39,184 nt of DNA, taken from positions 1-39,184 of the forward strand of contig JANYDD010000054.1 of the NCBI GenBank assembly GCA_025359945.1, read 5' to 3'. Position 1 is the stretch's first letter. Every line of letters starts with the position of its first letter. The stretch comes from Bdellovibrio sp. Lineage in GTDB: Bacteria; Bdellovibrionota; Bdellovibrionia; Bdellovibrionales; Bdellovibrionaceae. The position numbers and the translations under genes were made by a program. The notes beneath the pieces are model-generated. The model saw only the letters and a program-made list of their open reading frames with translations, ran no database searches and was not told where the DNA came from. Positions 7,897 through 37,245 of this stretch are shown piece by piece.

Positions 7897-7912
7897 TGTT
7901 TAAATTATACCC

Positions 7913-8635
7913 CTATAGTTTGAAATTTTCGCCTAAATAAAACTTTTTGGCTAGGTCGTTGTTGGCGATTTCATTTGACGTACCCTGGACTTGGATCTGG
8001 CCGTCTTTCAAAATATATGCACGGTCGCAAATCCCCAAAGTTTCGCGCACATTGTGATCTGTGATCAATATACCGATGCCCCTAGTTTTCAGTTGCAAAA
8101 TAATTTGTTGAATATCGTGAACCGCAATGGGATCAATCCCCGCAAAGGGTTCATCCAACAGCAAAAACTTTGGAGTTCCAGCCAAGGCCCTGGCAATTTC
8201 AACTCGGCGACGTTCTCCTCCTGACAAAGAAAACCCATTATTGTTGCGAATATGCTGAATGCGAAAATCATTTAGCAAAACTTCCAGCGCTTCGGATTTA
8301 CGGCTGTCTGAATACCCACCGGCTTCTAAAGCTACCAATAAATTTTCTGAGACTGTGAGTTTTCGGAAGATGCTAGCCTCTTGAGGTAGATAACTTAAAC
8401 CTTCGCGCGCCCGCCGATACATGGGCATTTGCCCAATCGATTTTTCGTCGACCAAAACGTCGCCCTCATCAGGCTTCACTAGTCCAACGACCATATAAAA
8501 ACTGGTTGTTTTGCCGGCTCCATTGGGACCCAATAGGCCCACTACTTGCCCTGATTGGACTTGAAACGAGACTTCTCGAACAACCTGTCGTTTCTTAAAG
8601 GCTTTTGAAATACCTCGGGCTTCAAGTTGACTCAT
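7913..8635 (-). CDS. lptB: LPS export ABC transporter ATP-binding protein
   Basis: 240 residues, full length for LptB. Visible motifs are Walker A ([20 protein letters not shown]), the Q-loop region ([14 protein letters not shown]), the ABC signature ([15 protein letters not shown]), Walker B ([13 protein letters not shown]) and the H-loop ([12 protein letters not shown]). The protein powers extraction of LPS from the inner membrane with LptFG, which are not in the window. It begins three bases after the end of the LptC/LptA-like gene and is followed by rpoN. Co-transcription with the upstream Agl/Tol-like genes is likely from the spacing. Confidence 0.96.
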
Positions 8636-8638
8636 GCT

Positions 8639-9613
8639 TTATTTCTCATCTTTCTCGACGTGGGCTTTTAGGTTTTTTACTTTTACTTTGCGGCCACCAT
8701 CGGTAAAAATAATTTCGTCTCCTAAAACTTCGTCTTCGTTTTGAACTACTCGCGGAGACCCTTTTAATACCATTTGATTTAAATCAGGATCAAACTGCAA
8801 TGTGTCCGAAGTCGCCTGCCGAAGAGGATCCGACAACCTTGCACCGCCTCGAACTTGGATCGATTGAAAAAAATCAGTCCCCGTCTTGTAGAAAAAATCA
8901 GCCTCGGGCCCTTCGATTTTCATTTTCTGATACTCGATCAAAACTTTTTTAGAAAAATGCGCTGAATTATCTATGCTGCTAAACAAAGCCTGTTCGCTGG
9001 TGATCACCATTTCTTTTTGGTCGGACATTTTTTTCTCGGCGCGAACATTTTTCAAAATTTTCATAATATTGCGATCAATGGGAGATTCCATCCCCAATCC
9101 CGTCAGGTTCAGCGGTGACCCTTGTGAATCCGGCGGCGAGGTCATCTTTACTTTTTCCGGAGTGTGAAGCGTTCGCAGTTTGGCTTTGTAATACAAAATC
9201 GGGCTTTCAAACCTGTAGCCATTGGCAGACGTCGTGATGACTTTACCCTGAATGGTCATGTCTTTGGTTTCGGTATCAATTTTCCCTTTTTCTCCCGAGA
9301 CCCGAAATTGCAATTTGTCATCTTGGTAAAAGTGAATGTTCACTTTATTTAAATCCCATTGGCCTTTATTGCCCGAGCCCTCTGCGGAATCCGAGAAAAG
9401 TTCCCAGTCTTTGTGGCCCCCGCGACTTTCAACGTAGTGGATACCTGTCCCTGACATTTCTTTTTCGCTGGAATCGCCGGCTGTTGTCTGCGCGCTTTGA
9501 TTCTCGGGCGAATCTTTGTCGTGCTCTAGTTGTTTTGGAAATCCTACAAAGACTTCCAAAAACAAAATCAGCAATAAAAAACTAAAAATAATAAGACGGA
9601 ATTTTTTAAACAT
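8639..9613 (-). CDS. lptC: LptC-LptA-like fusion protein of the LPS transport bridge
   Basis: About 324 residues from the ATG at 9613, which opens on a single membrane anchor (MFKKFRLIIFSFLLLILFLE). A frame running back to 9736 would overlap the previous gene and is rejected. LptC alone is usually about 190 residues. The first periplasmic half (roughly 60-200, with GIHYVESRGGHKDWELFSDS and RFESPILYYKAKLRTLHTPE) looks like LptC. The second half (roughly 200-324) looks like LptA/OstA, with EMVITSEQALFSSIDNSAHF early and MVLKGSPRVVQNEDEVLGDE near the end. Because lptC-lptA-lptB-rpoN is a common order and no separate lptA lies here, I infer that both functions are in one chain. Domain boundaries are by eye. 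Confidence 0.75.
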   Translation of the reverse strand: MFKKFRLIIFSFLLLILFLEVFVGFPKQLEHDKDSPENQSAQTTAGDSSEKEMSGTGIHYVESRGGHKDWELFSDSAEGSGNKGQWDLNKVNIHFYQDDKLQFRVSGEKGKIDTETKDMTIQGKVITTSANGYRFESPILYYKAKLRTLHTPEKVKMTSPPDSQGSPLNLTGLGMESPIDRNIMKILKNVRAEKKMSDQKEMVITSEQALFSSIDNSAHFSKKVLIEYQKMKIEGPEADFFYKTGTDFFQSIQVRGGARLSDPLRQATSDTLQFDPDLNQMVLKGSPRVVQNEDEVLGDEIIFTDGGRKVKVKNLKAHVEKDEK

Positions 9614-9656
9614 CAATTTGGTCAAGGCTATCGAATGTAAAAACTTGATGCAAGGT

Positions 9657-9692
9657 CTAGAATTATGGCTAGAATTACGGCTAGTCTTAAGG
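9657..9692. repeat. Three tandem 12-base repeats between an exbD gene and lptC
   Basis: CTAGAATTATGG, CTAGAATTACGG and CTAGTCTTAAGG follow each other directly. The first two differ at one base and the third is more diverged. The TAA stop of the exbD-type gene (9687-9689) lies inside the third unit. The repeats fall in the 73-base gap between that stop and the lptC-like start. Confidence 0.65.
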
Positions 9693-10265
9693 CTTTTTGG
9701 CTTCGCGATTGACGGCAAAATTAATTTCCGTCGCACCGGCTTCGGTGATCGTGTACATGACTTTTTTAACAGTTAAAAAATCGACCGTTTTGTCTGACTG
9801 AATCGTGACAAAACTCCATAACTGCGGGCGCTTGTTTGTATCATTAGAACTGACTGCTTTTTTTAACTGATCAGACAGATCGTTATCAAATTGGCGTTTG
9901 GATTCCATTAGCGCAGTTTTGACTTCCTGAAATAATTTTCCCAGAAGCCAATCGGTTTGGAATCTTGCCTGCTGGATAGTCAACACCGTCTTGCGATCCA
10001 CTAAAATTTCATCTCGCGAAATGGTGACGACCACCGCGGGCTTAAGATCTTTCACTTGCTGGGCGCTGGGAAGGTCCACTTTTTCTGGAATAAACATCAC
10101 CGCATTGGTGGCTGGATCAAAATTCTGAAGCAAGAAGATCACTAGCACTGTAAACATGTCGACCATTGCGGCCAGCGATAACACCGCCACCACTTCGCGT
10201 TTAGTTTTTTTTCTTTTCAACAATTTGGAACTTCTGAATTTTTGTCCCGGTGGATAAATCGCCAT
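9687..10265 (-). CDS. TolR/ExbD-family protein (AglS/AglQ-like), second of two
   Basis: 192 residues. It has one membrane helix near residues 25-48 with the functionally important Asp (LAAMVDMFTVLVIFLLQNF), as in TolR, ExbD and MotB, where that Asp takes part in proton flow. A periplasmic domain follows, longer than in typical TolR and with an insertion around QFDNDLSDQLKKAVSSNDTN. The ATG directly abuts the TAA of the other ExbD-type gene. Together with the TolQ-type gene this makes a 1+2 motor unit like AglR-AglQ-AglS of Myxococcus. Which of the two is the AglQ or AglS equivalent cannot be told from sequence alone. Confidence 0.88.
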   Translation of the reverse strand: MAIYPPGQKFRSSKLLKRKKTKREVVAVLSLAAMVDMFTVLVIFLLQNFDPATNAVMFIPEKVDLPSAQQVKDLKPAVVVTISRDEILVDRKTVLTIQQARFQTDWLLGKLFQEVKTALMESKRQFDNDLSDQLKKAVSSNDTNKRPQLWSFVTIQSDKTVDFLTVKKVMYTITEAGATEINFAVNREAKKP

Positions 10266-10733
10266 TTACTGAGGCCCTCCGGTAAGAATAGAAATCTGCG
10301 GAAACCCTGCTTTTAATAAAACATCCATCGCTTTGATCAGCTGCTCGTAGGGAAGTTCATCCGCCATGGCAATCGCACCGTCTAACTTGTTGGGGTAAGA
10401 TTTCTTAAACTGCTCTAGCTTTTGCATCAGAGTGGCTTGGTCGTATTCTTGATTGATTTTGGGTATTGACAGACTTTGTTGTGCTGTCGCCAAAACATAG
10501 CCGTTAGATCTAATTTCAAGTTTCAGAACCACATCGGCTTGCGGCGGAATATCCACCTTTTGATTCGTCTTTTTTCCATAAATCGAGCTGCCAATTTGTA
10601 TCAAAGAAATCTGGGTCCAAACGGCGGTGATCAATAAAAAAGTAATCAGCACGCTCATCAAATCGATAAACGGAACTAAATTAAGATCCAGGTTTTTTTT
10701 TCGACCGCCGGATTCCGACTGCATCTCTGACAT
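10266..10733 (-). CDS. TolR/ExbD-family protein (AglQ/AglS-like), first of two
   Basis: 155 residues, normal for the family. The cytoplasmic N-terminus is short and basic (GGRKKNLDLN). It is followed by the single helix VPFIDLMSVLITFLLITAVW with the conserved proton-pathway Asp. The periplasmic part ends YEQLIKAMDVLLKAGFPQIS, the usual TolR/ExbD C-terminal fold. One base separates its ATG from the stop of the TolQ-type gene upstream, and its own stop touches the next start. This arrangement implies translational coupling and a fixed stoichiometry for the motor complex. Confidence 0.9.
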   Translation of the reverse strand: MSEMQSESGGRKKNLDLNLVPFIDLMSVLITFLLITAVWTQISLIQIGSSIYGKKTNQKVDIPPQADVVLKLEIRSNGYVLATAQQSLSIPKINQEYDQATLMQKLEQFKKSYPNKLDGAIAMADELPYEQLIKAMDVLLKAGFPQISILTGGPQ

Positions 10734-10734
10734 T

Positions 10735-11394
10735 TTATTCCTTCATTTTGTCGCGGTTCGAGGCCACCATGTTCAGTAAGCTCATGCTACCTTCGATCAT
10801 ATCGTTTTCAGCGCGCTGAATTCGCAATTGAAAATACCCGTAAGTAACAATCGCAATAATCGCGACCAACAGACCAAACGCGGTACAATTCAAGGCATGA
10901 GAAATGCCCTCGGAAAGTCTTTGCGCTTTAGTTGCGGGATCGGCGTCGGCGACACCTCGAAACGATCCGATCATCCCAATGATGGTTCCTAACAATCCCG
11001 ACAGCACGGCGATGTTTCCATTGACGGCCAGAAATGACGTCCAGCCTTCCAATCGCGGAGTCTCGCGCAGGACAGATGCATCCATCGCGACTTGCACCTC
11101 TTCATCTGGGCGTTTGTTCATCACCTGAACTAAACCTGCTTTGATCGTGTTGGAAAGCGGTGCGGGTCGAGTGTCACAAAAAGCCAAAGCTTGGCGTAAG
11201 TCTCCGCGCAAGATCATCGCAAAAACTTGGTCCAAGAATTCTTTTTTGCTAAGAGTTAATTTTTGCAGCGCCAGAAAACGCTCGACCACCAAAAATAAGG
11301 TGATAATAAAAATAAAAAGAATTAAGTACATCACCGGTCCGCCTTCTGAGAAAGCTCTTTGGATTAGGGGTTGGTTGACTAATTCTGGGTTCAC
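10735..11394 (-). CDS. TolQ/ExbB/MotA-family proton-channel protein (AglR-like)
   Basis: 219 residues with three membrane helices: VMYLILFIFIITLFLVVERF near residues 20-40, a second around FLAVNGNIAVLSGLLGTIIG with the conserved LGTIIGM turn, and a third at CTAFGLLVAIIAIVTYGYF. A cytoplasmic loop of about 80 residues links the first two. The GTG start at 11394 is fixed by a strong AAGGAGG six bases upstream. With the two following ExbD-type proteins it would form a proton-driven stator. The adjacent GltG/PglI-like gene makes an AglR-type assignment more likely than TolQ or ExbB of an iron-uptake system, since no TonB receptor, tolA or tolB lies nearby. Confidence 0.9.
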   Translation of the reverse strand: MNPELVNQPLIQRAFSEGGPVMYLILFIFIITLFLVVERFLALQKLTLSKKEFLDQVFAMILRGDLRQALAFCDTRPAPLSNTIKAGLVQVMNKRPDEEVQVAMDASVLRETPRLEGWTSFLAVNGNIAVLSGLLGTIIGMIGSFRGVADADPATKAQRLSEGISHALNCTAFGLLVAIIAIVTYGYFQLRIQRAENDMIEGSMSLLNMVASNRDKMKE

Positions 11395-11400
11395 GGGGTT

Positions 11401-11407
11401 CCTCCTT
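11401..11407 (-). promoter_or_regulatory. Strong Shine-Dalgarno (AAGGAGG) for the TolQ-type gene
   Basis: AAGGAGG on the minus strand lies six bases before the GTG at 11394. It is one of the strongest ribosome sites in the window and settles the GTG as the start. Confidence 0.7.
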
Positions 11408-11421
11408 GATAATGAAACTAA

Positions 11422-13362
11422 TTAATTTTGTGGCCTAAACGTGAACGGGTAACTGACTTCGCCGACAACCCCTTTTGGAGACGCCGGAAATTTCTGAGCC
11501 CGAATTCGATGAGCGACACAATTTTCTACTGCTTTAGATCCTATGGTTGATGCCTTTGAAATACTTCTTAAAACTTTTCCCTGATCGTTGATGTCGAACT
11601 CGACCAAGAAACTGCCTTCTAGATTTTCTTGCGATCGCAATGCGGATTCGTAACACGCGCGAATTTGGCCGATAATACTTTTGATCACTCGGCGAATGCC
11701 TTCTTTATCTAAACCGCCCGTAAAGCCTGCGCCCGTGCCTTCGATGTTGATGGCCACGCTGCCCTTGCCGCCCACTCCGATATCTCCGTAGGCGCTTTGG
11801 CCCGAACTTCTACCTTTGGTTCCAACCCCTGCGATCCCGGTCATCGAAACACCCTTGCCGCCCGCGCCTGAATCTTTGATTTTAGAACCCAGATCATCGC
11901 CACTTCGATTTTCATTTTGGCCCGAGGTTCCGGTGGCTTGATTGGCAGTTCCCAAAAGTTCGCCAGTGCCCGAGTAAGCTTGGTCTAGTTGTTGTCGCAT
12001 TCCACCGCCGCCCAAGGATCCTAAAATTCCGGTCTTGGTCACGTCTTTGCTTTGGGCGCTGGCGCTTTGCTTTTCGGTCATTTTGACTGCGCCACCGGAC
12101 TTAACGGACGTGAATTTTTTTGGACGTTGCAAACCTGGCTTGGGTCGAACTTTGCTAGCGCGCGCGGCTTTTTGGTCGCGCAAGGTTTCTTTTTGCTTTT
12201 CTTGCTTTGCAGCTTCACTGGAAGTTTTAGCGGCAGCGGGCTTTTCGTTTTGTTCGGTGGTCATTTCCATTTTTTCGCGAACAAGTTTTTCTTGATAAAC
12301 AAACTGGGCTCTACGCACGGGCTCTTGTTCATCTTTCGGGCCTGTTAACGACGGAGAGGTCAGCGAAATGTAAACTCCGAACAACGCCACCAGAACTAAA
12401 GATCCAATAACCCCGGTCATCTCACCCGCGGTCAAGTCGGTACCAAGCAAGGCGGCCATGGGCGGCTGGGGAATAAATCGCAGAAATATTTGAAGCTCGT
12501 TTTCGCCCGGTGCACCCAAGGTCAGAATCAACAAGTCACCTTGTTGAATCGATGCCGAAGTCCCCGTTTGCAGGGTGACTTGACCGTTTCTTTTCAGTTC
12601 ACACTGCATGTAGCTTGGAATAAACACGGAAGTTTTAGGACCCAAATCGATAAAGCCAATTTGGGTTGGTACAAAGTGACTTGGAACTTGAATTTGCGAA
12701 TGAGAAAGCGAGCCCAGCGTGATCGATTTTTTTCCCCAAAAATGTTGGGTGGATAGGATTCTTTCTCTCCAAGTTACGATCACTTCTAAAGTGGGCCCTT
12801 GAGTGGATTTAAAATAATTTTTTAAGTCAGAAATTTGATTGGCTGGAGAAAAAGTCTGTCGTTTTTTCTTGCCCTTAGGTTTCATGTTTGTAGGAACTTT
12901 GAAATTTAAGTGGGCCTCTTTAGCTGTTACTTTCAAAGCAGATTTTTGGGGGTTTGGCTTTTCGACAATGATTTGGGTGGTATTAGCAGTTGGATTTTGG
13001 CTTGAATGAGTGTTCTTTTTTTCGGGCGTGGCAGCGATATTTGGATTTGTGTTTTCAAACGTTAACGATTTCGGCGCGCCGACAAAAAAGTGAAGTTCGA
13101 AATTTCCGATCTGAATCACTTCACCAGCAGAAATCGATTGGTCCAAAACGCTTTGAGACTTTATTCGGATCCCCGTTTTAGATCCCAGATCGCTGATAAA
13201 ATACCCCGAGCTTCGCAGCTCGATCAGCGCGTGCAAACCCGAAACACTATCGTCCTTTAGCCGCAGTTGAGCTTCGTCCCCAGATCCAATCAGCACCGAA
13301 GACTGGGTCAACTGCTTGACTTCAAGCAACTGGTTGTTTTTGAAAACTCGAATCAGTATCAA
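11422..13362 (-). CDS. GltG/PglI-like protein: FHA domain, membrane helix, Gly-rich linker, AgmX/PglI C-terminal domain
   Basis: 646 residues. Order: FHA-like domain (about 1-93), Lys/Pro-rich linker, a second beta-rich FHA-like region (about 195-305), one membrane helix (MTGVIGSLVLVALFGVYISL), a charged segment, a Gly-rich stretch (about 445-545), and a C-terminal TonB-like domain (about 550-646). The last has the paired conserved Cys of AgmX/PglI domains (IRACYESAL and VENCVAHRI). This layout fits GltG of Myxococcus, which spans the inner membrane and links the AglRQS motor to periplasmic partners. The TTG at 13362 has GGAG six bases upstream and overlaps the previous stop as TTGA. The first FHA has Ser27 where Arg is usual and Thr63 where Asn is usual, so phosphothreonine binding is doubtful. 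Confidence 0.85.
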   Translation of the reverse strand: MILIRVFKNNQLLEVKQLTQSSVLIGSGDEAQLRLKDDSVSGLHALIELRSSGYFISDLGSKTGIRIKSQSVLDQSISAGEVIQIGNFELHFFVGAPKSLTFENTNPNIAATPEKKNTHSSQNPTANTTQIIVEKPNPQKSALKVTAKEAHLNFKVPTNMKPKGKKKRQTFSPANQISDLKNYFKSTQGPTLEVIVTWRERILSTQHFWGKKSITLGSLSHSQIQVPSHFVPTQIGFIDLGPKTSVFIPSYMQCELKRNGQVTLQTGTSASIQQGDLLILTLGAPGENELQIFLRFIPQPPMAALLGTDLTAGEMTGVIGSLVLVALFGVYISLTSPSLTGPKDEQEPVRRAQFVYQEKLVREKMEMTTEQNEKPAAAKTSSEAAKQEKQKETLRDQKAARASKVRPKPGLQRPKKFTSVKSGGAVKMTEKQSASAQSKDVTKTGILGSLGGGGMRQQLDQAYSGTGELLGTANQATGTSGQNENRSGDDLGSKIKDSGAGGKGVSMTGIAGVGTKGRSSGQSAYGDIGVGGKGSVAINIEGTGAGFTGGLDKEGIRRVIKSIIGQIRACYESALRSQENLEGSFLVEFDINDQGKVLRSISKASTIGSKAVENCVAHRIRAQKFPASPKGVVGEVSYPFTFRPQN

Positions 13363-13667
13363 GGCGATCTCCGAGTTTTGTTTTTAGATAAACTAGACTT
13401 TGACTGTTGTAATTCCTCGGATGTTTGCCGCATTTCAGGTAAAAAATTTTCTCGTAATCGAACCAATTTTTTATAGTTAAAATTCTTTTTTTGAAAAAGA
13501 TAAATAAGCTCTGGCTTCTGCGCAGTTCCCTCAACCAGCTCATCTTCAAAAGACAAACTTTGTTTTTTGGGATTGTTGACTGCTTGATTTTTATTTTGTG
13601 CGTGCACCGTCGAAGCCTTGGCTAAAAATAAAATCGCACAGAAAGTATATCTGTTTACAAAACCCAT
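13359..13667 (-). CDS. Small secreted protein preceding the GltG-like gene
   Basis: 102 residues. A signal peptide (YTFCAILFLAKASTVHA) is followed by a short, highly charged, probably helical mature part (KPELIYLFQKKNFNYKKLVR and EMRQTSEELQQSKSSL). It overlaps the GltG-like gene by four bases (TTGA), so both are translated together. In Myxococcus, as I recall, the slot just before gltG is held by gltF; position is the only argument for equivalence and I see no sequence signature. The ribosome site is weak (AGGG very close to the ATG). Expression could depend on a promoter in the 95 bases upstream or on readthrough from the glycosyltransferase gene. Confidence 0.75.
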   Translation of the reverse strand: MGFVNRYTFCAILFLAKASTVHAQNKNQAVNNPKKQSLSFEDELVEGTAQKPELIYLFQKKNFNYKKLVRLRENFLPEMRQTSEELQQSKSSLSKNKTRRSP

Positions 13668-13762: not shown

Positions 13763-14512
13763 CTAAGTTTTCACCTTTGAAAAACTGTATCTGCCGATCC
13801 AACCCATCCACTTCATCTGCAAGAGATCGACGGGGGCTCGAATAAGAATTTTATGTATACTAAGTCTAGAAGGTCGCATTTCAAGTTCGGGGATCACCTG
13901 GACTTTTCCGACGCGAAGGTTATTTTTAATACAAATGTAAAGATACTCGATATCAAAAAGCCCGGCATTCACTCGCTGAAGATCAGTTATTTTTTTAAGG
14001 ACATCGCGCCGAAATAATTTAAATCCGCACTGGGTATCAATAAACTCGCGCGAATTAAAAACCCAAGCTTGCTGTATGATCAATAAACCTAAGGAAAGCG
14101 TAAATCGAAGTGGCGTCTTGATGTTTCGCTTCACCACTCTCTCTGCGATGACCGCATCAAAACCGCGGTCCCTTTGCAGCTGGACAAATTGCGGGATTTT
14201 CTCCATTGGGACGGGCAAATCCGCATCCATAAAGAAAACGGGATCTCCCATGGACTGGCTAGCCCCAACTCGAACGGCACCACCCTTTCCGTTTTGTTGA
14301 CCGCGAAGAAGCTTGGAATATTTTAAGCCGCTGGAAGAAATTGTGGCGGATAACAAATTGAAATCATCATTGGGACTGTCATCCACAATTAAAATTTCCC
14401 ACAGCAAGTGATTTTCGTTCTGCAAAAAGCTTTCTAGTTTAAAAAGAGTATCAACCAGATTTGTTTCTTTGAAAGTCGGAATTATTATTGAAACCAAGGG
14501 TTTTGAAGTCAC
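13763..14512 (-). CDS. Family 2 glycosyltransferase, dolichyl/polyprenyl-phosphate sugar transferase-like (Alg5-like)
   Basis: 249 residues with a GT-A fold. It starts VSIIIPTFKE, followed by ILIVDDSPND for nucleotide binding, GKGGAVRVGASQSMGDPVFF, the DXD-containing FMDADLPVP for metal binding, and DTQCGFKLFRRDVL, which is characteristic of dolichyl-phosphate glucose/mannose synthases. There is no C-terminal membrane extension, so it probably acts at the inner face of the inner membrane, loading a sugar onto a polyprenyl-phosphate carrier. The GTG start at 14512 fits the usual N-terminus of the family; its ribosome site is weak. The two GT-C-like membrane proteins nearby are plausible users of such a lipid-linked sugar. 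Confidence 0.88.
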   Translation of the reverse strand: MTSKPLVSIIIPTFKETNLVDTLFKLESFLQNENHLLWEILIVDDSPNDDFNLLSATISSSGLKYSKLLRGQQNGKGGAVRVGASQSMGDPVFFMDADLPVPMEKIPQFVQLQRDRGFDAVIAERVVKRNIKTPLRFTLSLGLLIIQQAWVFNSREFIDTQCGFKLFRRDVLKKITDLQRVNAGLFDIEYLYICIKNNLRVGKVQVIPELEMRPSRLSIHKILIRAPVDLLQMKWMGWIGRYSFSKVKT

Positions 14513-14567
14513 AAATTAAAATACTTTAGCCTCCGAAGAGATGACAAGCAAATCTTCAGGCAGAGCC

Positions 14568-16178
14568 TCAGTCAAAGAAACGGCGAGGCTGCGGGAACTC
14601 TAGAAAAAACTTTTCCATTCTGGGTCGAAGATAGTTGTTAAAGGTGATTTTTTGCTCGTCCGTAAATACGAGGACTGAGAAAAAGCCACAATTAACTTCC
14701 TCTAAAGGCTGACCAAACAAGGTTTTAAATTTTCCATAAGAAACGTCCTCTTCTGCGGCGATAAAAAACTGATAGTTTAATAGCACGCCGTTTTTATCTT
14801 TATACCAGTAAACGTTGCTCACCCAATGTAGAGGATCAAAATTATAAGTGAGCTGCACGACCCTGGCGCGGCCGTCCGAGAGATTGGTGATCCTTTTTGC
14901 GGGCCAATATTCGCTTGCACCTACCGTAAGTTGTTCCGAATCTAACATTTTCACGATGCATTTGCTGGTCGAATCCAATTTTGTTTTGGGCAAACTTAAA
15001 TCTAAATCGATCATCCCAAACAAGCTAAAACTAAAAAAAGAAAGACAATAAATAACTTTTCTCCAGATAGGATTTTTTTTCTGCGCATCGAAGACGTAAA
15101 TCCCGACAAGGGCCCAAGGCAAAAAATAAAGCGGCTGCAGATAACGAAAGTTTGCCAGACCTCCCCACATTTTAAGAATCCATAAAACAGTCAATGTGAA
15201 CAAAATCGAGATACCGGTTAAAATGTGAAACCCCTGAATCGCAGGCCTTTGGTGGCTGGGAAACCAAGACAACCGTTGGCCTTGAATTCCCGATCGCCAA
15301 AAAAGAAATGAAGCTAAAATTAAAAAAACTAAAAATGTAGGGGCCACTTGAAAGTTGTAAATAAGGTCTTGTCCAATCAATCGGGCGCTTTCAATCAGCG
15401 ACATCGAAATCGTTCCCAGCGGGGCCTTTGAAAAGTGGACCCAGTGGGCCCATCCTAAAAACTCTGTTAAGAGAAGACCCAAAATAGATCCCAACCCCGA
15501 TATCGCAAAAAATTTGACGTTGGGTCCGGATCTTAACTTTTTTTGGATGATCAAAATCACACTAGTTAAAAATAGAGGCACAGCAAACCAAATGGTCCAC
15601 CACAAATCAGATGCTGTTGCCACCAAACTCCACAAAAATAAAAATGCAAAGTCGATAGACCGCAAACCGCGCGCGGCGAAACGTAACCAGTAAAGCGTCA
15701 CAATCAGTCCTGCCAGCAGGGCACCAGTATGTGCAAAGGGTTCTAAAATAAAATTGAATTTGTGAATTCCATGATTCAAGTACGGCGCCGAGTAAATCAA
15801 AATCCAAAAAAGAATAAATGGAATGTCCCCCCAATGGACCTCTTCGAAAAACATTCTTAACAGGACATAAAAAACCAATACAAACGCAATCAAGTAAAAA
15901 AGGTAGTTCAGAAAAAGCGCTGAAATAAAGTCCCCAGTCAGGTACCTCATTGAAAAAAAAGTAAGCCATTCTGGAAAAAAATAGGGCGCTTTACTGACTA
16001 ACCAGCCGTGGATGGGAAAATGATCGACGAAGAGGTCTCGAAATAACGATTCAACGTGAAGGGTATCTGAATCTAGATCGTGCCCGGCAGACATTTTTCT
16101 GGCGACAAGATACAGAAGGATCGCAAGTGTCGAGGACATTAAGGTTGTTAGAAGCGCCTTGGCTTTAGGAGTCCGCAT
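14568..16178 (-). CDS. Polytopic GT-C-like membrane protein, shorter paralog
   Basis: About 536 residues from ATG at 16178; a longer frame from 16322 would overlap the divergent methyltransferase. About ten hydrophobic helices follow a first periplasmic loop with DLDSDTLHVESLFRDLFVDH and GWLVSKAPYFFPEW. The same signature occurs in the 923-residue protein at 17844-20615 (SDLIYLESIYQDLFIRG, then GWLVSRAPYFFPDW), so the two are clear paralogs. Other shared blocks are FRYLQPLYFLPWALVGIYVF and GASEYWPAK in the soluble C-terminal part. Acidic residues in the first outer loop after helix one are typical of GT-C transferases using polyprenyl-linked sugars. That is the likeliest role, by analogy only; the substrate is unknown. 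Confidence 0.75.
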   Translation of the reverse strand: MRTPKAKALLTTLMSSTLAILLYLVARKMSAGHDLDSDTLHVESLFRDLFVDHFPIHGWLVSKAPYFFPEWLTFFSMRYLTGDFISALFLNYLFYLIAFVLVFYVLLRMFFEEVHWGDIPFILFWILIYSAPYLNHGIHKFNFILEPFAHTGALLAGLIVTLYWLRFAARGLRSIDFAFLFLWSLVATASDLWWTIWFAVPLFLTSVILIIQKKLRSGPNVKFFAISGLGSILGLLLTEFLGWAHWVHFSKAPLGTISMSLIESARLIGQDLIYNFQVAPTFLVFLILASFLFWRSGIQGQRLSWFPSHQRPAIQGFHILTGISILFTLTVLWILKMWGGLANFRYLQPLYFLPWALVGIYVFDAQKKNPIWRKVIYCLSFFSFSLFGMIDLDLSLPKTKLDSTSKCIVKMLDSEQLTVGASEYWPAKRITNLSDGRARVVQLTYNFDPLHWVSNVYWYKDKNGVLLNYQFFIAAEEDVSYGKFKTLFGQPLEEVNCGFFSVLVFTDEQKITFNNYLRPRMEKFFLEFPQPRRFFD

Positions 16179-16231
16179 CTTTGCAAATTCGATGCGCCTG
16201 CAGAAAATGTCAACCGAATCTATGGAAACGT

Positions 16232-16261
16232 TTGTATTACGACGCTGATATCGAATATTAT
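16232..16261 (+). promoter_or_regulatory. Possible promoter giving a leaderless methyltransferase message
   Basis: TTGTAT at 16232-16237 and TATTAT at 16256-16261 are 18 bases apart. The expected start of transcription would fall within a base or so of the ATG at 16268, and no Shine-Dalgarno precedes that ATG. The match is moderate. Confidence 0.28.
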
Positions 16262-16267
16262 TCCACC

Positions 16268-16993
16268 ATGAAATTAAGCGCTGATCCCGCCTCGCAAAAG
16301 TGGCCAAAGTTTGTTCCGCCACTAAGTCCAGAAAAACAAGTTATTAGCGACGACTTTACTCGACTGTGGCACGAAGTCTCGCCGAAGAAATTTAAAATAG
16401 CTGAAGACTTTAATCACGGCTTTCCAGTTCGATATGCTCCAAAAAACTTTTTAAGAACGCTAGAAATTGGCGCTGGATTGGGCGAGCATTTAATTTACGA
16501 AAAGCTTTCCACGCAACAAATAAAAAACTATGTCGCTGTCGAGTACCGACAAAACATGGTCAACGAAATTCAAAAAAGATTTCCTTTAATTCAATCTGTA
16601 TTAGGCGATTGCCAAGATCGACTTCCCTTCCCAGATCAAAGTTTTGATCGGATTATTGCTGTGCATGTTCTTGAACATTTACCCAATCTTCCTGAATGTC
16701 TTCGAGAGATGCGTCGACTTTGTAAACCCGACGGGGTCTTTCAGGTGGTTATCCCTTGTGAGGGCAGCTGGGCCCATCGACTGGCTAGAAAAATAAGTGC
16801 GCAACGACTTTTCGAAAAAACTTATAAGCAATCTTACAAATGGTTTATCGAACGAGAACATATTAATCTTCCGCACGAAATCTTCGACGAGCTTGCGCCC
16901 TATTTCAGCATCGAGAAGCAAACTTTTTTTCCGCTTTTGGTCCCTGTTGTAAAAATAAATCTTTGCATCGGACTCAACCTAAGGCCCCGGTGA
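16268..16993 (+). CDS. Class I SAM-dependent methyltransferase (first of a pair)
   Basis: About 241 residues from ATG at 16268. An earlier frame from 16181 would start inside the divergent gene's upstream region with no family support. The Rossmann-fold motifs are LEIGAGLGEH (SAM-binding Gly loop), VAVEYRQNM with the acidic residue that would hold the ribose, SVLGDCQDRLPFPDQSFDRI, and HVLEHLPNLPECLREMRRLC followed by KPDGVFQVVIPCEG. This is a Methyltransf_11-type enzyme. It lies on the plus strand between two minus-strand GT-C-like paralogs and is translationally coupled to a second methyltransferase. A role in methylating a sugar or lipid-linked glycan is an inference from context; the substrate cannot be read from the sequence. 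Confidence 0.85.
   Translation: MKLSADPASQKWPKFVPPLSPEKQVISDDFTRLWHEVSPKKFKIAEDFNHGFPVRYAPKNFLRTLEIGAGLGEHLIYEKLSTQQIKNYVAVEYRQNMVNEIQKRFPLIQSVLGDCQDRLPFPDQSFDRIIAVHVLEHLPNLPECLREMRRLCKPDGVFQVVIPCEGSWAHRLARKISAQRLFEKTYKQSYKWFIEREHINLPHEIFDELAPYFSIEKQTFFPLLVPVVKINLCIGLNLRPR
16980..16984 (+). promoter_or_regulatory. Shine-Dalgarno TAAGG that fixes the GTG start at 16990
   Basis: TAAGG lies five bases before GTG at 16990, which overlaps the TGA of the preceding gene as GTGA. This coupled arrangement is a better start than the ATG at 16963 or 17002. Confidence 0.5.
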
Positions 16994-17874
16994 CCTTGAC
17001 TATGCAAGATCTAAATCGATTTCCTCATCCAAATGCACCCGATCAATTGATCAATTGGAAACCAGGTCGTGTTTTGAGTTATCGCACGGATGATAGTGGA
17101 TGGAGCGATGAGCTGACAAACTTGCACGAAATCGAAGCCAACGGTGGGCAACATCCGGTCGATCTAGCTTCGCGCCATTTGGCCGTTAAAGCAATGTTGC
17201 AGAACGCCCAGAAATTAATCGGTCCTCCATTGGCATTGGAAGTAGGCTGCTCTAGTGGTTTTCTTTTGAGGGATCTCTTCGCGGCGGGCTCGTTTCGGAT
17301 TATCGGATCTGATTTTATTGCCGGACCTTTAAAAAAGATCGCTTCGCAGTTTCCGAAAATTCCGATATTGCAGTTCGATCTGACGAAATGCCCACTGGCG
17401 GATTCGTCGATAGATCAAGTCGTTGCTCTTAATGTATTGGAACATATCGAACAGGATGAATTAGCGCTTCGACAGATATTTAGAATTCTAAAACCCGGCG
17501 GATTTTGCTATCTAGAAGTCCCTGCAGACCCCAAATGTTTTGATGCCTACGACGAGGTCCTTATGCATTTTCGCCGTTATACGATCCAAGACCTTGTTCA
17601 AAAAGCGAAATCCGCGGGGTTTAACGTCATCTACAAAACACATTTGGGATTTTTTCCGTTTCCCGTCTTTTGGTTAATAAAGAAATGGAGTCGATGGAAT
17701 CCCCCCCTGAAGAGCGAACGAGAAAAAAAAGTTCGCCAGCAAATTCGAAACTCAAAAAGTAGTCTGATTTTGAAAACTATGGTTAGGGTTGAAATATTTC
17801 TTGGCCAATGGATTACTTTTCCTTTTGGAATTAGAGCCATTGTTCACCTTGAAAAACCATTTTCGCGAATTTGA
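16990..17874 (+). CDS. Class I SAM-dependent methyltransferase (second of the pair)
   Basis: About 294 residues from the GTG at 16990, overlapping the previous stop as GTGA. SAM-binding motifs are LEVGCSSGFLLRDLF, IIGSDFIAGPLKKIA, QFDLTKCPLADSSIDQVVAL and NVLEHIEQDELALRQIFRIL followed by KPGGFCYLEVPA. The C-terminal part has a hydrophobic patch (LGFFPFPVFWLIKKW) that may sit on the membrane. The protein is a Methyltransf_11-type relative of its neighbour but only moderately similar outside the core. Its 3' end overlaps the 3' end of the convergent 923-residue membrane-protein gene by 31 bases. Confidence 0.85.
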   Translation: MTLTMQDLNRFPHPNAPDQLINWKPGRVLSYRTDDSGWSDELTNLHEIEANGGQHPVDLASRHLAVKAMLQNAQKLIGPPLALEVGCSSGFLLRDLFAAGSFRIIGSDFIAGPLKKIASQFPKIPILQFDLTKCPLADSSIDQVVALNVLEHIEQDELALRQIFRILKPGGFCYLEVPADPKCFDAYDEVLMHFRRYTIQDLVQKAKSAGFNVIYKTHLGFFPFPVFWLIKKWSRWNPPLKSEREKKVRQQIRNSKSSLILKTMVRVEIFLGQWITFPFGIRAIVHLEKPFSRI

Positions 17875-20615
17875 TTTTTTATTTTCAGCGCTTCGATGTC
17901 CTGCGGATATTGTCTTAAGACTTCTTGCAAAAGTTCAAGAACTTTCTGAGAGACGAATTTCTTTGAGTCAAAGTCCGAAAATTCTAGTAATTCGTAACTG
18001 GTTACCGCCAACCATTTTGCGGTTTCCGGCGTCTTTGAAGCTCTGCGAGCTTGAAAAGCGTATCCTGCGGCCCTTCTTATATAACCTTCCATTAAATCAT
18101 TTTTAAGCGGATCTTTTGAATTCTGACGATACCATAAAAAGTAATTTCGCAAAAATCGAGCTATTCTCCAATTAATTTCGGAATTAACCAAGGCTGAGTT
18201 CTGGGGTGGTGCCTTTGCATGGGGCGCAAAAATCGACAAACTTTTAACTGATTCGGGCAAAGTAAGCTCGGCTTGTTTTAACCAACGAAATTCTTCTTGG
18301 AAATTTCTATGATCAAAAAAACGATCGGCTTGGGATAATAATTCGGCAACAGATGCCTTTGGGTATGGCGAATATTTACTTAGGTCGATTTGTTTCGCGT
18401 TTTTTTCTTGAGTCGTCAGCAAGCGTAAGCCGACCATGTCGACTTCGGCGGCTGTTCCTGAATCTTCCACAAACAAGGGTCGAATTACGGCATAGCTGAG
18501 GGGGCCAACCTCTTTTTCTTCAATTTGGGGAACGTAAAAAGTGACTTCAAATTTTTTCCAGTCACCCTTAATTTTAAAACTTTCAGATGCGCTCAAGCCA
18601 AAATGAAGAGCTGTGGCATCTAATATTCCTTGCGGCAAAAGATATCCGTGACTGGAGACTCTTGTCGAGCCCTTCAGCGATCTTCCCCAAAAACTGAGAG
18701 TTAAACTATTTCCGGCAATTTTGCGGATGTCATCGAATCGAATTTCAAGAAACGCAAATTTCTTTGCACTATCGGTCTTCCATCTAAGAAATTTTGTTTG
18801 TTGGCTTCCTGATGGATCAACCTCATTCTCGAGCGGCAGCCAAGTGAACTCTGATCCAACAGGTTCAGACACTGACGACCAAGAAATTGATTTATTCACC
18901 GGCGCTCCGGCAGAGTCCGCCAATAAATCCAATCCCGTGCTGGGTAATTTTCGCAACAAATCGAAATACTGCTGAACACGGACGCCCAAAAGTTCGTTCA
19001 GAAGCTCACGCCCATGTCCTTTGTAGATAAAAACGCCGGCTCCGTCGCAAAACACGATTTCCGTCGGAGGTCCAACATTTTTCAACAATGTTTTAAAAGA
19101 CTCTTCAGATGAATTTGCGGTAAAAAAATCGTACTGCAAAACAGAATCGGAATTTTGGCTACGATACCAATTCAGATTATTCATCCAGTGATTTAGTTGA
19201 TAAAAATAATTGAATTGGTTGACCATAATGCCGGACCTGTTCGTTTCGGTCAGGAATTTTGCCATCCAATATTCGCTGGCTCCTGCGTGCAATTCATAAT
19301 TTACCGCAGTCATATCTAAACATTGGGCCATCGACGAATACGGAGACTTTGGTAAAAACGTCCTGGAATTGGGCGGTAAATATTCCTCAGTGTTAGAAAT
19401 TTCATTGATAAAAACACTAAGCAGCAGAAAAGGTATAAAATAAACGGCCACTTTTAAACGAAAACTTGAATTTAAACGCCATCGTTGTACGTAAATGCCA
19501 ACCAGAAACCATGGCAAAACCATCAATGGAACTACGTACCTAAAGTTCCATTGGCTCCATAATTTTAAAAGTAAGATCACCACAAAAGGGATCAGTATTG
19601 AAAATCCAACTAACCAATGCAAAGACAAAAATTCGATTCGATGGGCCTTGGAAACAATCTGTTTTCTTTGACGATAAATAATGCAAAGGCAAGCCACTGT
19701 TAAAATCGAAAATACCGGAGCAGCTAGAATTAATTCTCCGAAATCGAGAACGATCGATTTGGCTTGTCCAAACCAGCTGGCTCCGGGACTTCCGACATGG
19801 GTCGTTGAGAAAAAAAGCCACTGATGGTCTTCGATAATTCCGATTAGAATCTCTCCTACGGTGATCCCAAAGCCCAGGGCCGCAAAAAAAGAGAAATGAT
19901 CCTGCCAGCGAATTTTTTTTTGATAGGTTAAAAGTAAAGCAGTCGCTCCCATCGGAGCAACAAACCAGATCAGCCACCATTCGTCAGACATAACAGCTAA
20001 AATTGATAAAGCAAAAACACCCAACAAATTGGCTTTTGATTTTTTTGCTCCAAATCCTTTAATCCAAATCCAGACCAAGAGAAGTCCATTCAAAAAGGCA
20101 CCTGAATGGTAGGCCGGCAAAATAAAAGTATGGTTACCAAAAAAAGAGGGTCCCTGTTTAAGAATTAAAACCAGAAGCGCAGACCAACTTAAAGAAAACA
20201 AAACATCGTTGCGCCGATTTCCCGGGAAAAAAAAACGGGCCAACGCGTAGAAAAAAACAATCAGCACAGAAAAATTTAAAAAAATATAAGCGTACCAAGC
20301 CATCCCATAATTACCGATAAGACCGCGTAACGCAAAAAACCCGACCCAATCCGGAAAAAAATAGGGCGCACGACTGACCAACCATCCACTCAAAGAATAG
20401 CCGCGGATAAAAAGATCTTGGTAAATAGATTCAAGATAAATTAAATCGCTGAGTAAACTGTGAATAGCTAATGAATCTCGGAAAATTCTGTCCAAACAAA
20501 ACGCAATGATCAAACAAATTACCAAAGAAAACAAAATGTGGTAAATTAAACTGATGGGGTTCTTGAATTTTTGGGATTTTTGGGTGCTGTGTGAATTTCG
20601 AGAACTCAATTTCAA
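17844..20615 (-). CDS. Polytopic GT-C-like membrane protein with long soluble C-terminal extension (longer paralog)
   Basis: 923 residues. The first 540 or so match the 536-residue paralog at 14568-16178: a first loop with LLSDLIYLESIYQDLF, GWLVSRAPYFFPDW, about ten membrane helices, FRYVVPLMVLPWFLVGIYV, and GASEYWMAK. About 380 further residues are absent from the paralog. A beta-rich portion (about 560-735, with FLEIRFDDIRKIAGNSLTLS) resembles a carbohydrate-binding jelly-roll, and a helical portion (about 750-923, ending VLRQYPQDIEALKIKNQI) resembles TPR-like helices. No ATG precedes the family N-terminus; the TTG at 20615 has AGGG about nine bases upstream. A lipid-linked-sugar transferase displaying a binding domain in the periplasm is plausible but not shown. 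Confidence 0.75.
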   Translation of the reverse strand: MKLSSRNSHSTQKSQKFKNPISLIYHILFSLVICLIIAFCLDRIFRDSLAIHSLLSDLIYLESIYQDLFIRGYSLSGWLVSRAPYFFPDWVGFFALRGLIGNYGMAWYAYIFLNFSVLIVFFYALARFFFPGNRRNDVLFSLSWSALLVLILKQGPSFFGNHTFILPAYHSGAFLNGLLLVWIWIKGFGAKKSKANLLGVFALSILAVMSDEWWLIWFVAPMGATALLLTYQKKIRWQDHFSFFAALGFGITVGEILIGIIEDHQWLFFSTTHVGSPGASWFGQAKSIVLDFGELILAAPVFSILTVACLCIIYRQRKQIVSKAHRIEFLSLHWLVGFSILIPFVVILLLKLWSQWNFRYVVPLMVLPWFLVGIYVQRWRLNSSFRLKVAVYFIPFLLLSVFINEISNTEEYLPPNSRTFLPKSPYSSMAQCLDMTAVNYELHAGASEYWMAKFLTETNRSGIMVNQFNYFYQLNHWMNNLNWYRSQNSDSVLQYDFFTANSSEESFKTLLKNVGPPTEIVFCDGAGVFIYKGHGRELLNELLGVRVQQYFDLLRKLPSTGLDLLADSAGAPVNKSISWSSVSEPVGSEFTWLPLENEVDPSGSQQTKFLRWKTDSAKKFAFLEIRFDDIRKIAGNSLTLSFWGRSLKGSTRVSSHGYLLPQGILDATALHFGLSASESFKIKGDWKKFEVTFYVPQIEEKEVGPLSYAVIRPLFVEDSGTAAEVDMVGLRLLTTQEKNAKQIDLSKYSPYPKASVAELLSQADRFFDHRNFQEEFRWLKQAELTLPESVKSLSIFAPHAKAPPQNSALVNSEINWRIARFLRNYFLWYRQNSKDPLKNDLMEGYIRRAAGYAFQARRASKTPETAKWLAVTSYELLEFSDFDSKKFVSQKVLELLQEVLRQYPQDIEALKIKNQIRENGFSR

Positions 20616-20687: not shown

Positions 20688-21557
20688 TTATTTGGACTTG
20701 GCTTTGATTTCCAATTCTGACAAGCGCGTCTTCAGATCAGGCTGCACGCCGTAAAATTTTATTTTTTTTAGCCACTCTTGGCCTTGCGCGATTTGGTTTT
20801 TATTTTCGATGTAGAGCCCCGCTAAATTCATAATTAAATACTGGTTCGATGGATTTTCTTTAATGGCCTGAGTCAGCACCATTTCGGCAATCTCGATTTT
20901 TTGTGCAGATTTCAATGTCAATGCGTAGTGATGTGCCACCGGCGCGTTTTTTGGATTTTTTTTATACGCGGTCTCTAATGGAACCGATGCTTTGTTCAAA
21001 TCCCCCTGGCGAACAAACAACGTCCCGATATTGGCATTGACCGAAAAGTCTTCGGGGTTTTGCTGAAGGGCCCGCCGAAAATATTTAAGGGCCTCGGCGA
21101 AATCCTTTTTGCCAATTGCGACCAAACCCATATTATTTAAAATTTCAAACGAATTGGGTTTTTGTTTCAGAGCCTTTTGAAAAAACAATTGGGCGGCATC
21201 CCACTGGGCCTTTCGGTAAAATAAAACCCCTTGCGCGTTCAAGGCTTGGGCGTCCAGAGGATCAAGGGCTAAAATATTTTGTACGATCGCACCAGTTTGA
21301 GAGGAATTTTGATCCCGTAAACTTTGGGATAAACTCTTTTTTAAACTATCGGTTCTCGAGACCTCGGGGGCGACAGTATTCGGGCGCAAGGGCTGCAGCG
21401 TTGCCGACGGTCTTTCATCCAACGGAGACGACGGGCTTTCGGTCGTCGCCAAGTCGGAAGAATCAGCGTCCAAGGATTTCGATTTTTTAGTTTCAGACCC
21501 GCACGAAATCAAGCCTGCCAAAGATGCTGCGATAAGAATCGATCGCCATTCAATCAT
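20688..21557 (-). CDS. TPR lipoprotein (GltE/AglT-like)
   Basis: About 289 residues. ATG at 21557 overlaps the TGA of the upstream gene (ATGA). The signal peptide ends in a lipobox (SLAGLISC, acylated Cys at about residue 19), followed by a Ser/Thr/Pro-rich linker that usually lets a lipoprotein reach across the periplasm. From about residue 100 there are consecutive TPRs (ILALDPLDAQALNAQGVLFY, ALKQKPNSFEILNNMGLVAI, ALQQNPEDFSVNANIGTLFV). GltE of the Myxococcus Glt complex is an outer-membrane TPR lipoprotein, and the gene follows a large GltD-like TPR gene in the same order. The last gene before the glycan island, it ends 72 bases before the GT-C gene start. Confidence 0.85.
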   Translation of the reverse strand: MIEWRSILIAASLAGLISCGSETKKSKSLDADSSDLATTESPSSPLDERPSATLQPLRPNTVAPEVSRTDSLKKSLSQSLRDQNSSQTGAIVQNILALDPLDAQALNAQGVLFYRKAQWDAAQLFFQKALKQKPNSFEILNNMGLVAIGKKDFAEALKYFRRALQQNPEDFSVNANIGTLFVRQGDLNKASVPLETAYKKNPKNAPVAHHYALTLKSAQKIEIAEMVLTQAIKENPSNQYLIMNLAGLYIENKNQIAQGQEWLKKIKFYGVQPDLKTRLSELEIKAKSK

Positions 21558-24500
21558 AAACCCATCCATTGAACCTGATAAGATTCGATCACGCCATGTT
21601 TTGAATAATCAATGTGCTTAGGATTCAAACGCGCCACCTGGTCTTTGGCTCGGTGATAATCTTCACCATAAGTTTCTAGATCTGACCCGCGATCCACGCA
21701 CGCTTGATAGCTTTCCTGAGCTTTTTTATAAAATGGATCGACAATTGCGGCTAAACTGTCTTCGTATTTCTTTTTATCGACTTCGCTCATTCCCGCGGGC
21801 CGTGTTGCTTGAATTAAAGTTTCAGCCATATTGTGATTGGCTTGGCCCAACAAATACAGAGAGCTGACGATTTGAGGGCTTGAATCCATCTTAATTACGC
21901 TCAGCAATTTCTGATTGAGCTGATTCAACGCTTTAATTTTTTCTTGCACGACTTTTTGTTGCCTAGCTTGGGTTTTTGGAATTTTCAGCGACCTGAAAAC
22001 AGCCAAAAGATCTCGAGCTTCATCTAACTGAAGGGCTGCACGATGATTTAAGTAAAGATTTTTCTGAGTCGAAGCTTGAAAACTTTGTAGGAATTGTTTT
22101 TTCCAATGGCTGACTTCTTTTTGATTATTTTTTGCACGCGCCAACTGATAAAGCTGAAACTGTGCTTCTAGTCTTTTATCCTCAGGAATTTTCCCAAAAC
22201 TTAAAAAATCTTTGTAGGCTTTTGCGGCCGCAGTATCGGCATTTGATTTTCTTTTAAGCTCGGCCGTTTGCCACAAAGAATCTGCTCCGCGAGACTGCGC
22301 ATAGTTACCAGAGGCTCGTTGAAGCTGCCCTAAAGCTTCGGCTAAAACTCCGGCATTAAAGTGAGCACTCGAGGACATTCCTGCCGCGACTTTTCCTTTT
22401 GCAGCTTGTTCGTACAAATGAACTGCCCCTTCAAGATTTCCGCGATCTTGCTCGATCTGCGCAGAACCGACCAAAGCTTTGTAGCGAATTTCTTCGCTAG
22501 GTTTCTGAGCCAAACATTTGTCGTAGTTCTTTAGCGCCTTGCTGCGCTCGCCTGCTTTTTCGTAGTTTACGGCAGCGTTTAAAAAAGCGCCCGCGGCCTG
22601 GGGACTTCCGGAATTAGCCAAAGCAAAAGCTTCAAATGACTGTGCCGCCTGCGGGTAATCTTTATTTCGTTCAAACTCTTGAATTTTTTTTAATCCCACC
22701 TGACCCAGGATCGCTTGAACTTCTTTACCTGCTTTAGAGGCTTTAAAACTGGGGATTTGCAAAAGCTCTTTCGCCACTTTTTCCAGGCCGGCGTAATCTT
22801 TTTTCAGATTGAAAATATCTAAAAGCAGATTCGCCGAATATTCAGCGTAAACCGTTCCGGAATTCTTCTCGATAATTTTTTTGAAATAAGGAATCGCTTC
22901 GTCAAAATAATTGTGTTGATAGTACAATCTGCCTATCCGGAATTCGATTTCAACTCGTTTGTTTTTTTGCGGGTATTTTTGATTGTACCAAAGACCTGAA
23001 TCGATAAACTTTCGAATGGCTTCGCTCATAGCGACTGGCTGCAAACGCTGGCCGACCTTTTTTTCAATTTCAGCATCCTTCGGCAAACTTTTTTCTAACG
23101 AAAGAACAACGTTTTCCGCCGAGTTGCCAGCGAATTTGTGTTGCGGATATTGGTCGGCAAAAAGTCGATAGTTGTCAGCGGCTTCTTTGTTCTGACCGCG
23201 GTCATACTGAAGTTCGGCAAAGTAGAAGAGCATGTCGGGGTAAAGTGGCGCATTTCGGAATTCGCTTAAGTATATCGAATATCCATCAGCAGCTAACTTC
23301 TGCGCGGATAGGGATTTTGTTTTTTGTGCCGATTGATGCTGTTGCAAGATCCAAATTCGAAGATTGGTTTCGCGAAGGGCCAAAGCGTTTTGAACTAGGT
23401 CTTTATTTCCGCTGTTGGCTTTGTACCAAGCTGAATCTGCCGAATAATCACGAATCCACGACAGAAGTTCTTTTTTAAATTCTTGAGTTTTCACAGCGTT
23501 CGAAAACGATTTTACGATTTGATATTGGTACTCGAAAGCTTTGGGTTGATTGGGATTTTGAGCGATTAAATAAGCAAAAAGTTGTTGCGCCCCTGATCTT
23601 TCGCCGCGATCGGCGTACAAATATGCCAAGCGCTCCAAATAAAAATCGCTATCTTGTGGGGCCACCGAGCGGAAGTACTGAATCGCTTTTTGCGGCTGCC
23701 CTATTTCCGTATAAACTAAAACCAAATCCTTCAGCGCTTCTGATTCCAAACGTGGATTCGAACTGTTTTTTGGCGCCTGCCTTAAAGACGAGATCAAACT
23801 TTGAAGCTGCTGCATGGCTTTCTGGCTCTGAGAGGTTCTGAAAGAACACCAAGCCAATTTGTATAAAGAATAATGATAAAGTCGGTGCCCCTTATCGTTT
23901 AAAACGCGTTGAAAACTTGCAGCGGCTTGTTTCCATTTTTCATTTTCAAAGAAAAATTCTCCAAGAGCAAAATAAGATTCAAGCACATATTGGCTGCGCG
24001 GAAATTCTTTTGTCAGTCGCGTATAAAAATGCGTTCCGGCTTTAGTTTGTCCTAGCTCGTAGTAATTGTAACCCAAGAAAAACAAAGCTTGATCTACTTT
24101 TTCATCCCTAGGAAAATCGCGCAGAAACCATTCGTAAAGTTGGATCGCTTTTTTATTATATTCAAGAATACTTTGAGAATCCAATTTCGGTTTCGTTTTT
24201 CTTCGGCCAGCGAAAAATTCTTTTAAAGCCTGATCATATTCGGTTTGTTTTTTAAAATCGATCAGTGAAGCTTTTTCAACGTAAACCTCTGCTAGGCGCA
24301 GCCAAAGTTCCCCGCGCCGTGCTGAACCTTTGAATTTTTCGGTCATCTTGAAAAGCTCATCGATCTGTTGGTCTAATAATTTTTCAAGCTTGGCCTTGTC
24401 AGAATTATCTTGTGAAATAAACTGTGAGTTTTTTGGTGGTTTAACGCGGTCCAAATCAACGGGCCTTGCGGATCCTCGACTTTGAAAAAGCTTTTCACTA

Positions 24501-35180: not shown

Positions 35181-35217
35181 ACCGGTTACGCCTAGTAGGG
35201 CGCTTTGAAAGGCAGTG

Positions 35218-36084: not shown

Positions 36085-36101
36085 TTTAATTAAGAACTAG
36101 A

Positions 36102-37241: not shown

Positions 37242-37245
37242 AGTT

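Follow-up and report, generated by a model that had tools for sequence, protein, structure and literature searches.

Inserted into the Glt gliding operon of this Bdellovibrio sp. genome is a cassette of about 6.9 kb that probably encodes a lipid-linked extracytoplasmic glycosylation system. The cassette sits exactly between gltE and cglF, at positions 13763-20615 of the window (the whole 39,184-nucleotide stretch of DNA analysed here), and is composed of a GT2 gene, two membrane proteins, referred to here as A and B, and two methyltransferases, MT1 and MT2. All five reading frames lie where an earlier note on this DNA had placed them. The cassette genes and the adjoining genes of the host operon are the following.

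11422-13362, minus strand: gltG, gliding motility, host operon (NCBIfam GltG E 8e-57, below cut-off)
13359-13667, minus strand: cglF-like gene, 102 aa, downstream border (NCBIfam CglF E 3e-12, below cut-off)
13763-14512, minus strand: GT2, 249 aa (Pfam PF00535 E 1e-18)
14568-16178, minus strand: B, 536 aa from the inner ATG, 584 aa from an upstream GTG
about 16265-16993, plus strand: MT1, 242 aa from the ATG (longer ORF 16181-16993)
about 17002-17874, plus strand: MT2, 290 aa from the ATG (longer ORF 16963-17874)
17844-20615, minus strand: A, 923 aa, TTG start
20688-21569, minus strand: gltE-like TPR gene, upstream border (NCBIfam GltE E 4e-10, below cut-off)

Lying between the two membrane proteins, the methyltransferases are divergent from one and convergent with the other, as the earlier note described: the ATGs of B and MT1 are separated by 86 bp, and the 3' ends of MT2 and A overlap by 31 bp. 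Gene A follows gltE on the same strand at a distance of 72 bp, which makes its expression by read-through with the Glt genes plausible. Promoters and terminators are about as frequent in the cassette as expected from shuffled sequence, and an Rfam search of the cassette gave no matches.

The order HAD-OMP-OMP-gltC-TPR-gltE-cglF-gltG, followed by aglR-exbD-exbD-lptCA-lptB-rpoN, is common to six relatives from six genera, with one exbD masked by an overlapping ORF call in one of the six; the operon gene names derive mostly from matches below the NCBIfam curated cut-offs. Apart from the cassette, the window keeps this order. In the six relatives gltE and cglF are spaced by -4 to +22 bp, with no cassette between them. 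GltG homologs were found in all 30 genomes searched, and a search with protein A as single query recovered A-like proteins in 0 of 59 relatives. Owing to the colinear operon without the cassette in the six relatives and these two counts, the cassette is most simply interpreted as a gain in its own lineage. Neither integrase genes nor flanking or border repeats marking transposition were found at the cassette.

Elsewhere in the window, an lptCA-like ORF, lptB and rpoN follow aglR/exbD in the same order as in all six relatives (6472-13362), a conserved link between the Glt/Agl operon and LPS transport. What looks like a second group of glycan-related genes lies at 35215-38877; it comprises a radical SAM/SPASM protein, a methyltransferase-like gene and a 543-aa protein that has no Pfam match and recalls a polysaccharide lyase.

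A and B share 31% identity over 535 residues (E 2e-66), a similarity far beyond chance that bears out the homology proposed earlier, and the first-loop signature from which it had been read is present in both. Neither protein matches a Pfam or NCBIfam family at E values up to 1, and a PDB sequence search with A and B returned no relatives. An AlphaFold2 model of B, built from a 12-sequence alignment, has a pLDDT of 80 and a pTM of 0.80. The best nine matches of this model in the PDB (Foldseek) are all GT-C proteins, namely OST, ArnT, DPY19, PglB and AftB. With VIA-align the 46 best PDB entries are likewise all of GT-C fold, highest similarity being observed for ArnT (Z 17.7 over 417 residues, 4.2 Å with PDB 5ezm), and the first other fold drops to Z 5.7. 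Matches to FtsW-like (Z 5.7) and WaaL (Z 3.7) folds were dismissed, as they lie far under the GT-C block. The predicted structure of B thus clearly has the GT-C fold, in the GT-C_A subclass, in agreement with the fold guessed in the earlier note, and B is a predicted membrane glycosyltransferase.

The model of A is of low confidence (pLDDT 56), and its first 534 residues match the same GT-C set, with a best Z of 15.3. Neither outcome that the earlier note had named as refuting its reading, a missing GT-C fold or two unrelated membrane proteins, was thus observed. A is composed of two parts.

18933-20615, minus strand: A residues 1-561, GT-C membrane domain (E 2e-66 to B)
17844-18932, minus strand: A residues 562-923, C-terminal extension common to A and paralog C only

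The extension has helical repeats near its end, a model pLDDT below 50 over residues 603-808 and no Pfam match.

Conservation across 12 members points to candidate active-site residues. In B these are Asp38 after helix 1, the invariant His150, Asp191, Arg345-Tyr346 and Tyr424-Trp425, and in A the candidate catalytic Asp57, His170, Asp211 and Arg359-Tyr360. Asp38 of B and Asp57 of A are nearly invariant; in the B model Asp38 sits past helix 4-33, in helix 37-51. Invariant or nearly so among these 12 members, which come from several phyla, are (A numbering) Asp57, Asp67, Pro88, His170, Asp211, Pro221, Tyr360, Cys432, Gly445, Tyr449, Trp450, Lys453, Trp477, Asn480, Trp483 and Tyr484. PimE, ALG6, ArnT and PglB are proposed to use an Asp at the JM1 tip as their base (PMC12041525). 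In the GT136 enzyme ORF12, a pattern of Asp31, His106/His174 and Arg349-Tyr350 was tested by mutation; Asp31, Glu34, His106 and Arg349 proved essential and Tyr350 nearly so (PMC11127046). The A/B family carries an Asp, His and Arg-Tyr pattern that resembles this one, a likeness of pattern alone.

The GT2 protein carries DAD and QCGFK motifs, and C-terminal membrane helices are absent. Its PDB relatives are dolichol-P-mannose synthase (5mlz, E 1.3e-12), ArnC (9bhc, E 3.3e-11) and the GtrB sll0501 (5ekp, E 1.9e-5), placing it in the DPM1/ArnC/GtrB type and matching its earlier description as a polyprenyl-phosphate transferase. The cassette thus has a GtrB-type GT2 donor synthase adjoining a GT-C gene, the arrangement that marks the Gtr three-component system. 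Both opposite-strand genes are, as had been claimed, methyltransferases, class I SAM-dependent by Pfam Methyltransf_11 (MT1 E 2.6e-18, MT2 E 3e-17, each obtained with the longer ORF), and neither has a PDB relative at 1e-6. Among the methyltransferases compared, the closest to MT2 is one beside a family member in genome G009 (32% over 144 aa). Methyltransferases require SAM and hence act in the cytoplasm, before flipping or on cytoplasmic glycan.

The suggestion that these genes form a complete unit found no support. The cassette contains neither a flippase gene nor sugar-nucleotide genes, nucleotide-sugar synthesis being absent among its five genes, and for its nucleotide sugar it depends on the remaining genome. 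The GtrA flippase (PF04138) was not found in this genome, which is 96% complete, and was found in 7 of 14 control genomes; a flippase would therefore be of another kind.

A and B belong to an uncurated GT-C family that has no Pfam or NCBIfam model. The family signature consists of an SD...DLF...FPD first loop, an invariant His, Arg-Tyr and the C-terminal motifs Y-W-x-A-K and W-x-N-N-x2-W-Y, and A and B carry every element of it. A search with protein A alone (60 relatives) missed distant members that a family profile recovered. The profile detected near full-length members in 7 of the 369 genomes searched in the phylum, this genome included, from five genera; three further genomes of the 369 gave weak partial matches only. 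When 84,980 species genomes were scanned for a degenerate DNA version of the motif [FYH]W[IM]NN..WY, 74 stretches came up; ten of them were confirmed by the profile (E 7e-36 or better), three of these being already in it, and most others are chance matches. The pattern members come from Oligoflexia/Bdellovibrionales, Spirochaetia, Firmicutes, Thermoflexales, Myxococcaceae, Caenarcaniphilales, Nitrospinaceae and Magnetominusculus; the Magnetominusculus member (L204, G374:C76:46844-48393) is split by a frameshift into two ORFs. Ten further members had no Pfam match above cut-off. The distribution of the family is thus sparse and takes in about eight phyla of bacteria (Bdellovibrionota, Myxococcota, Spirochaetota, Chloroflexota, Bacillota, Nitrospinota, Nitrospirota and Caenarcaniphilales), and in the phylum of the Myxococcaceae member it was found in 5 of 195 genomes. 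Viral contigs searched with A and B gave no matches.

Glycan genes surround 8 of 20 family loci, and at five of these, including the window and the locus of a third paralog, C, a polyprenyl-phosphate GT2 lies beside the member. In G009 a GT2, a methyltransferase and the member form one compact gene run; at L092 the GT2 is immediately upstream, and at L141 it is accompanied by aminotransferase and Gfo/Idh genes. RfbA/RfbB-like genes lie near the member in G204, and a mannose-phosphate guanylyltransferase and an ABC exporter near that in G269. A GT2 was found within 5 kb at 5 of 17 member loci and 3 of 64 control loci, a comparison that is descriptive only and carries no probability claim, since the marker models were built partly from the same loci. 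At 12 of the 20 loci (9 of the 17 and 3 further myxobacterial ones), several of them on short contigs, there were no glycan markers within 5 kb. The survey for co-occurrence of the five genes proposed in the earlier note found a three-gene version (GT2, methyltransferase and GT-C member) in one relative, and no second A/B pair among the 369 genomes of the phylum.

The genome itself contains four family paralogs, A, B, C and D, which form one clade (100/98). Within it A groups with C (99/97), B branches before them (88/85) and D is outermost, C and D having entered the tree as fragments. The earlier proposal that one of A and B arose from the other by duplication is right in that the two are lineage-specific paralogs, but the closest relative of A is C rather than B. 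Paralog C is accompanied by a GT2 and a methyltransferase of its own and belongs to a nucleotide-sugar locus.

Interrupting both C and D is the same 105-bp palindromic MITE with inverted ends TGCACATGACGCC and a 9-10 bp target duplication (L007:10230-10335 and L008:5109-5214, on own-genome contigs C42 and C94); in both, the empty site is crossed by an open frame. Since C and D are broken in this way, A and B are the only uninterrupted copies found. Targeting of the family by the MITE was considered and dropped, as about 40 near-identical copies occur in the 2.74 Mb genome and 14 of 30 tested interrupt an ORF, C and D among them. Besides the MITE, C has a frame change near a G run in its C-terminal extension (L007:11480-11600).

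Among characterized systems, ArnT (GT83) moves aminoarabinose from Und-P onto lipid A, and its donor synthase is ArnC. The cassette resembles it in the best fold match of B, in the Asp after helix 1 and in the relation of ArnC to the cassette GT2; it differs in that A and B have no Pfam or NCBIfam match to ArnT or PMT, arn biosynthesis genes are missing and methyltransferases are added. An hhalign comparison with E. coli ArnT as a single-sequence template revealed no relationship at the profile level (Prob 0.2). Gtr O-antigen glucosylation, composed of the flippase GtrA, the GT2 GtrB and the GT-C protein Gtr*, has a similar outline of a small cassette combining GT2 donor synthase and GT-C transferase, but here GtrA is lacking from cassette and genome, and there are two GT-C paralogs and two methyltransferases. 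Citrobacter youngae ORF12 (GT136) likewise joins a GT-C core to an extra C-terminal domain; its catalytic Asp also follows helix 1, it too has an Arg-Tyr pair, and ArnT is named as its nearest solved relative. Its partners, however, are a MATE flippase and a donor synthase of the UbiA type that makes the ribose-phosphate donor, whereas the cassette has a GT2 (PMC11127046). Neither of those partners is encoded by the cassette or by the operon genes that flank it. The comparison with GT136 uses the published description of ORF12. The host operon, with gltC, gltE, cglF, gltG and aglRQS-type homologs in order, is like the Myxococcus/Bdellovibrio Glt-Agl operon (PMC3169522), which in the six compared relatives has no glycosylation genes.

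The most likely function is GtrB/ArnT-like lipid-linked sugar transfer for the envelope. By analogy with ArnC-ArnT, GtrB-Gtr* and GT136 (PMC11127046), the GT2 would take a sugar from its nucleotide donor and attach it to undecaprenyl phosphate at the cytoplasmic face, and MT1, MT2 or both may methylate that sugar or a glycan on that side. A flippase of a kind other than GtrA would then turn the lipid-linked sugar over, and A and B, as GT-C_A-type enzymes, would pass it on to an acceptor of the envelope on the periplasmic side. Asp57 of A and Asp38 of B would serve as the base, and the donor's phosphate and sugar would be held by the conserved His and Arg-Tyr. In favour of this reading are the fold of B, the conserved candidate residues, the type of the GT2, the GT2, nucleotide-sugar and exporter genes beside other family members, the compact gene run in G009 and the site of insertion. 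Counting against it are the 12 of 20 family loci without glycan markers, the lack of a flippase gene in the cassette and of GtrA in the genome, the hhalign result for ArnT and the two MITE-broken paralogs.

The acceptor is more likely an LPS-like or other envelope glycan, which is favoured by the several other family members in polysaccharide loci; Glt proteins are possible acceptors. The operon context itself favours the motor, an indirect support that comes from the insertion inside the Glt operon. That A, B or both put a sugar, possibly methylated, on periplasmic or outer-membrane Glt proteins of the same operon would fit the embedding of the cassette between gltE and cglF, the position of A, B and GT2 on the operon strand, and the PMT and OST structures among the best fold matches. 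We nevertheless consider it unlikely, as six relatives from six genera keep the Glt operon without the cassette, the family elsewhere occurs in polysaccharide loci or alone with no glt genes seen beside it, and the fold cannot separate protein from glycan acceptors. Less likely again is the fuller version, in which the family was recruited into the gliding operon and adds a methylated sugar to envelope proteins of the motor itself.

A more serious competitor, though one we think less probable than not, is that the cassette is a serotype-converting, gtr-like module for surface-antigen variation or phage evasion, landed by chance in a permissive expressed operon whose context would then be meaningless. 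Gtr systems act in that way (PMC11127046), and the occurrence in one genome only among relatives is consistent with it, as are four lineage-specific paralogs of which two are MITE-broken. The breakage of two of the four also means that the function may be dispensable. Against such a module, the borders of the cassette show no phage genes, no integrase genes and no flanking repeats. As a shared fold by itself shows no function, A and B might keep the GT-C fold and yet not be transferases; the conservation of the Asp after helix 1, the His and the Arg-Tyr in distant members, and the recurrence of GT2 partners at family loci, make this very improbable. Lipid-linked glycosylation of the envelope remains our preferred reading.

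The fold evidence defines a GT-C family that lacks a Pfam or NCBIfam model, and its signature lets hypothetical membrane proteins be annotated and tested. One gliding operon with a glycosylation cassette, set against relatives without one, is a clean natural experiment. The stem 'glycosyl' is absent from the paper describing the Glt-Agl operon (PMC3169522); if motor proteins are indeed modified with a methylated sugar, this would be the first glycosylated Glt machine.
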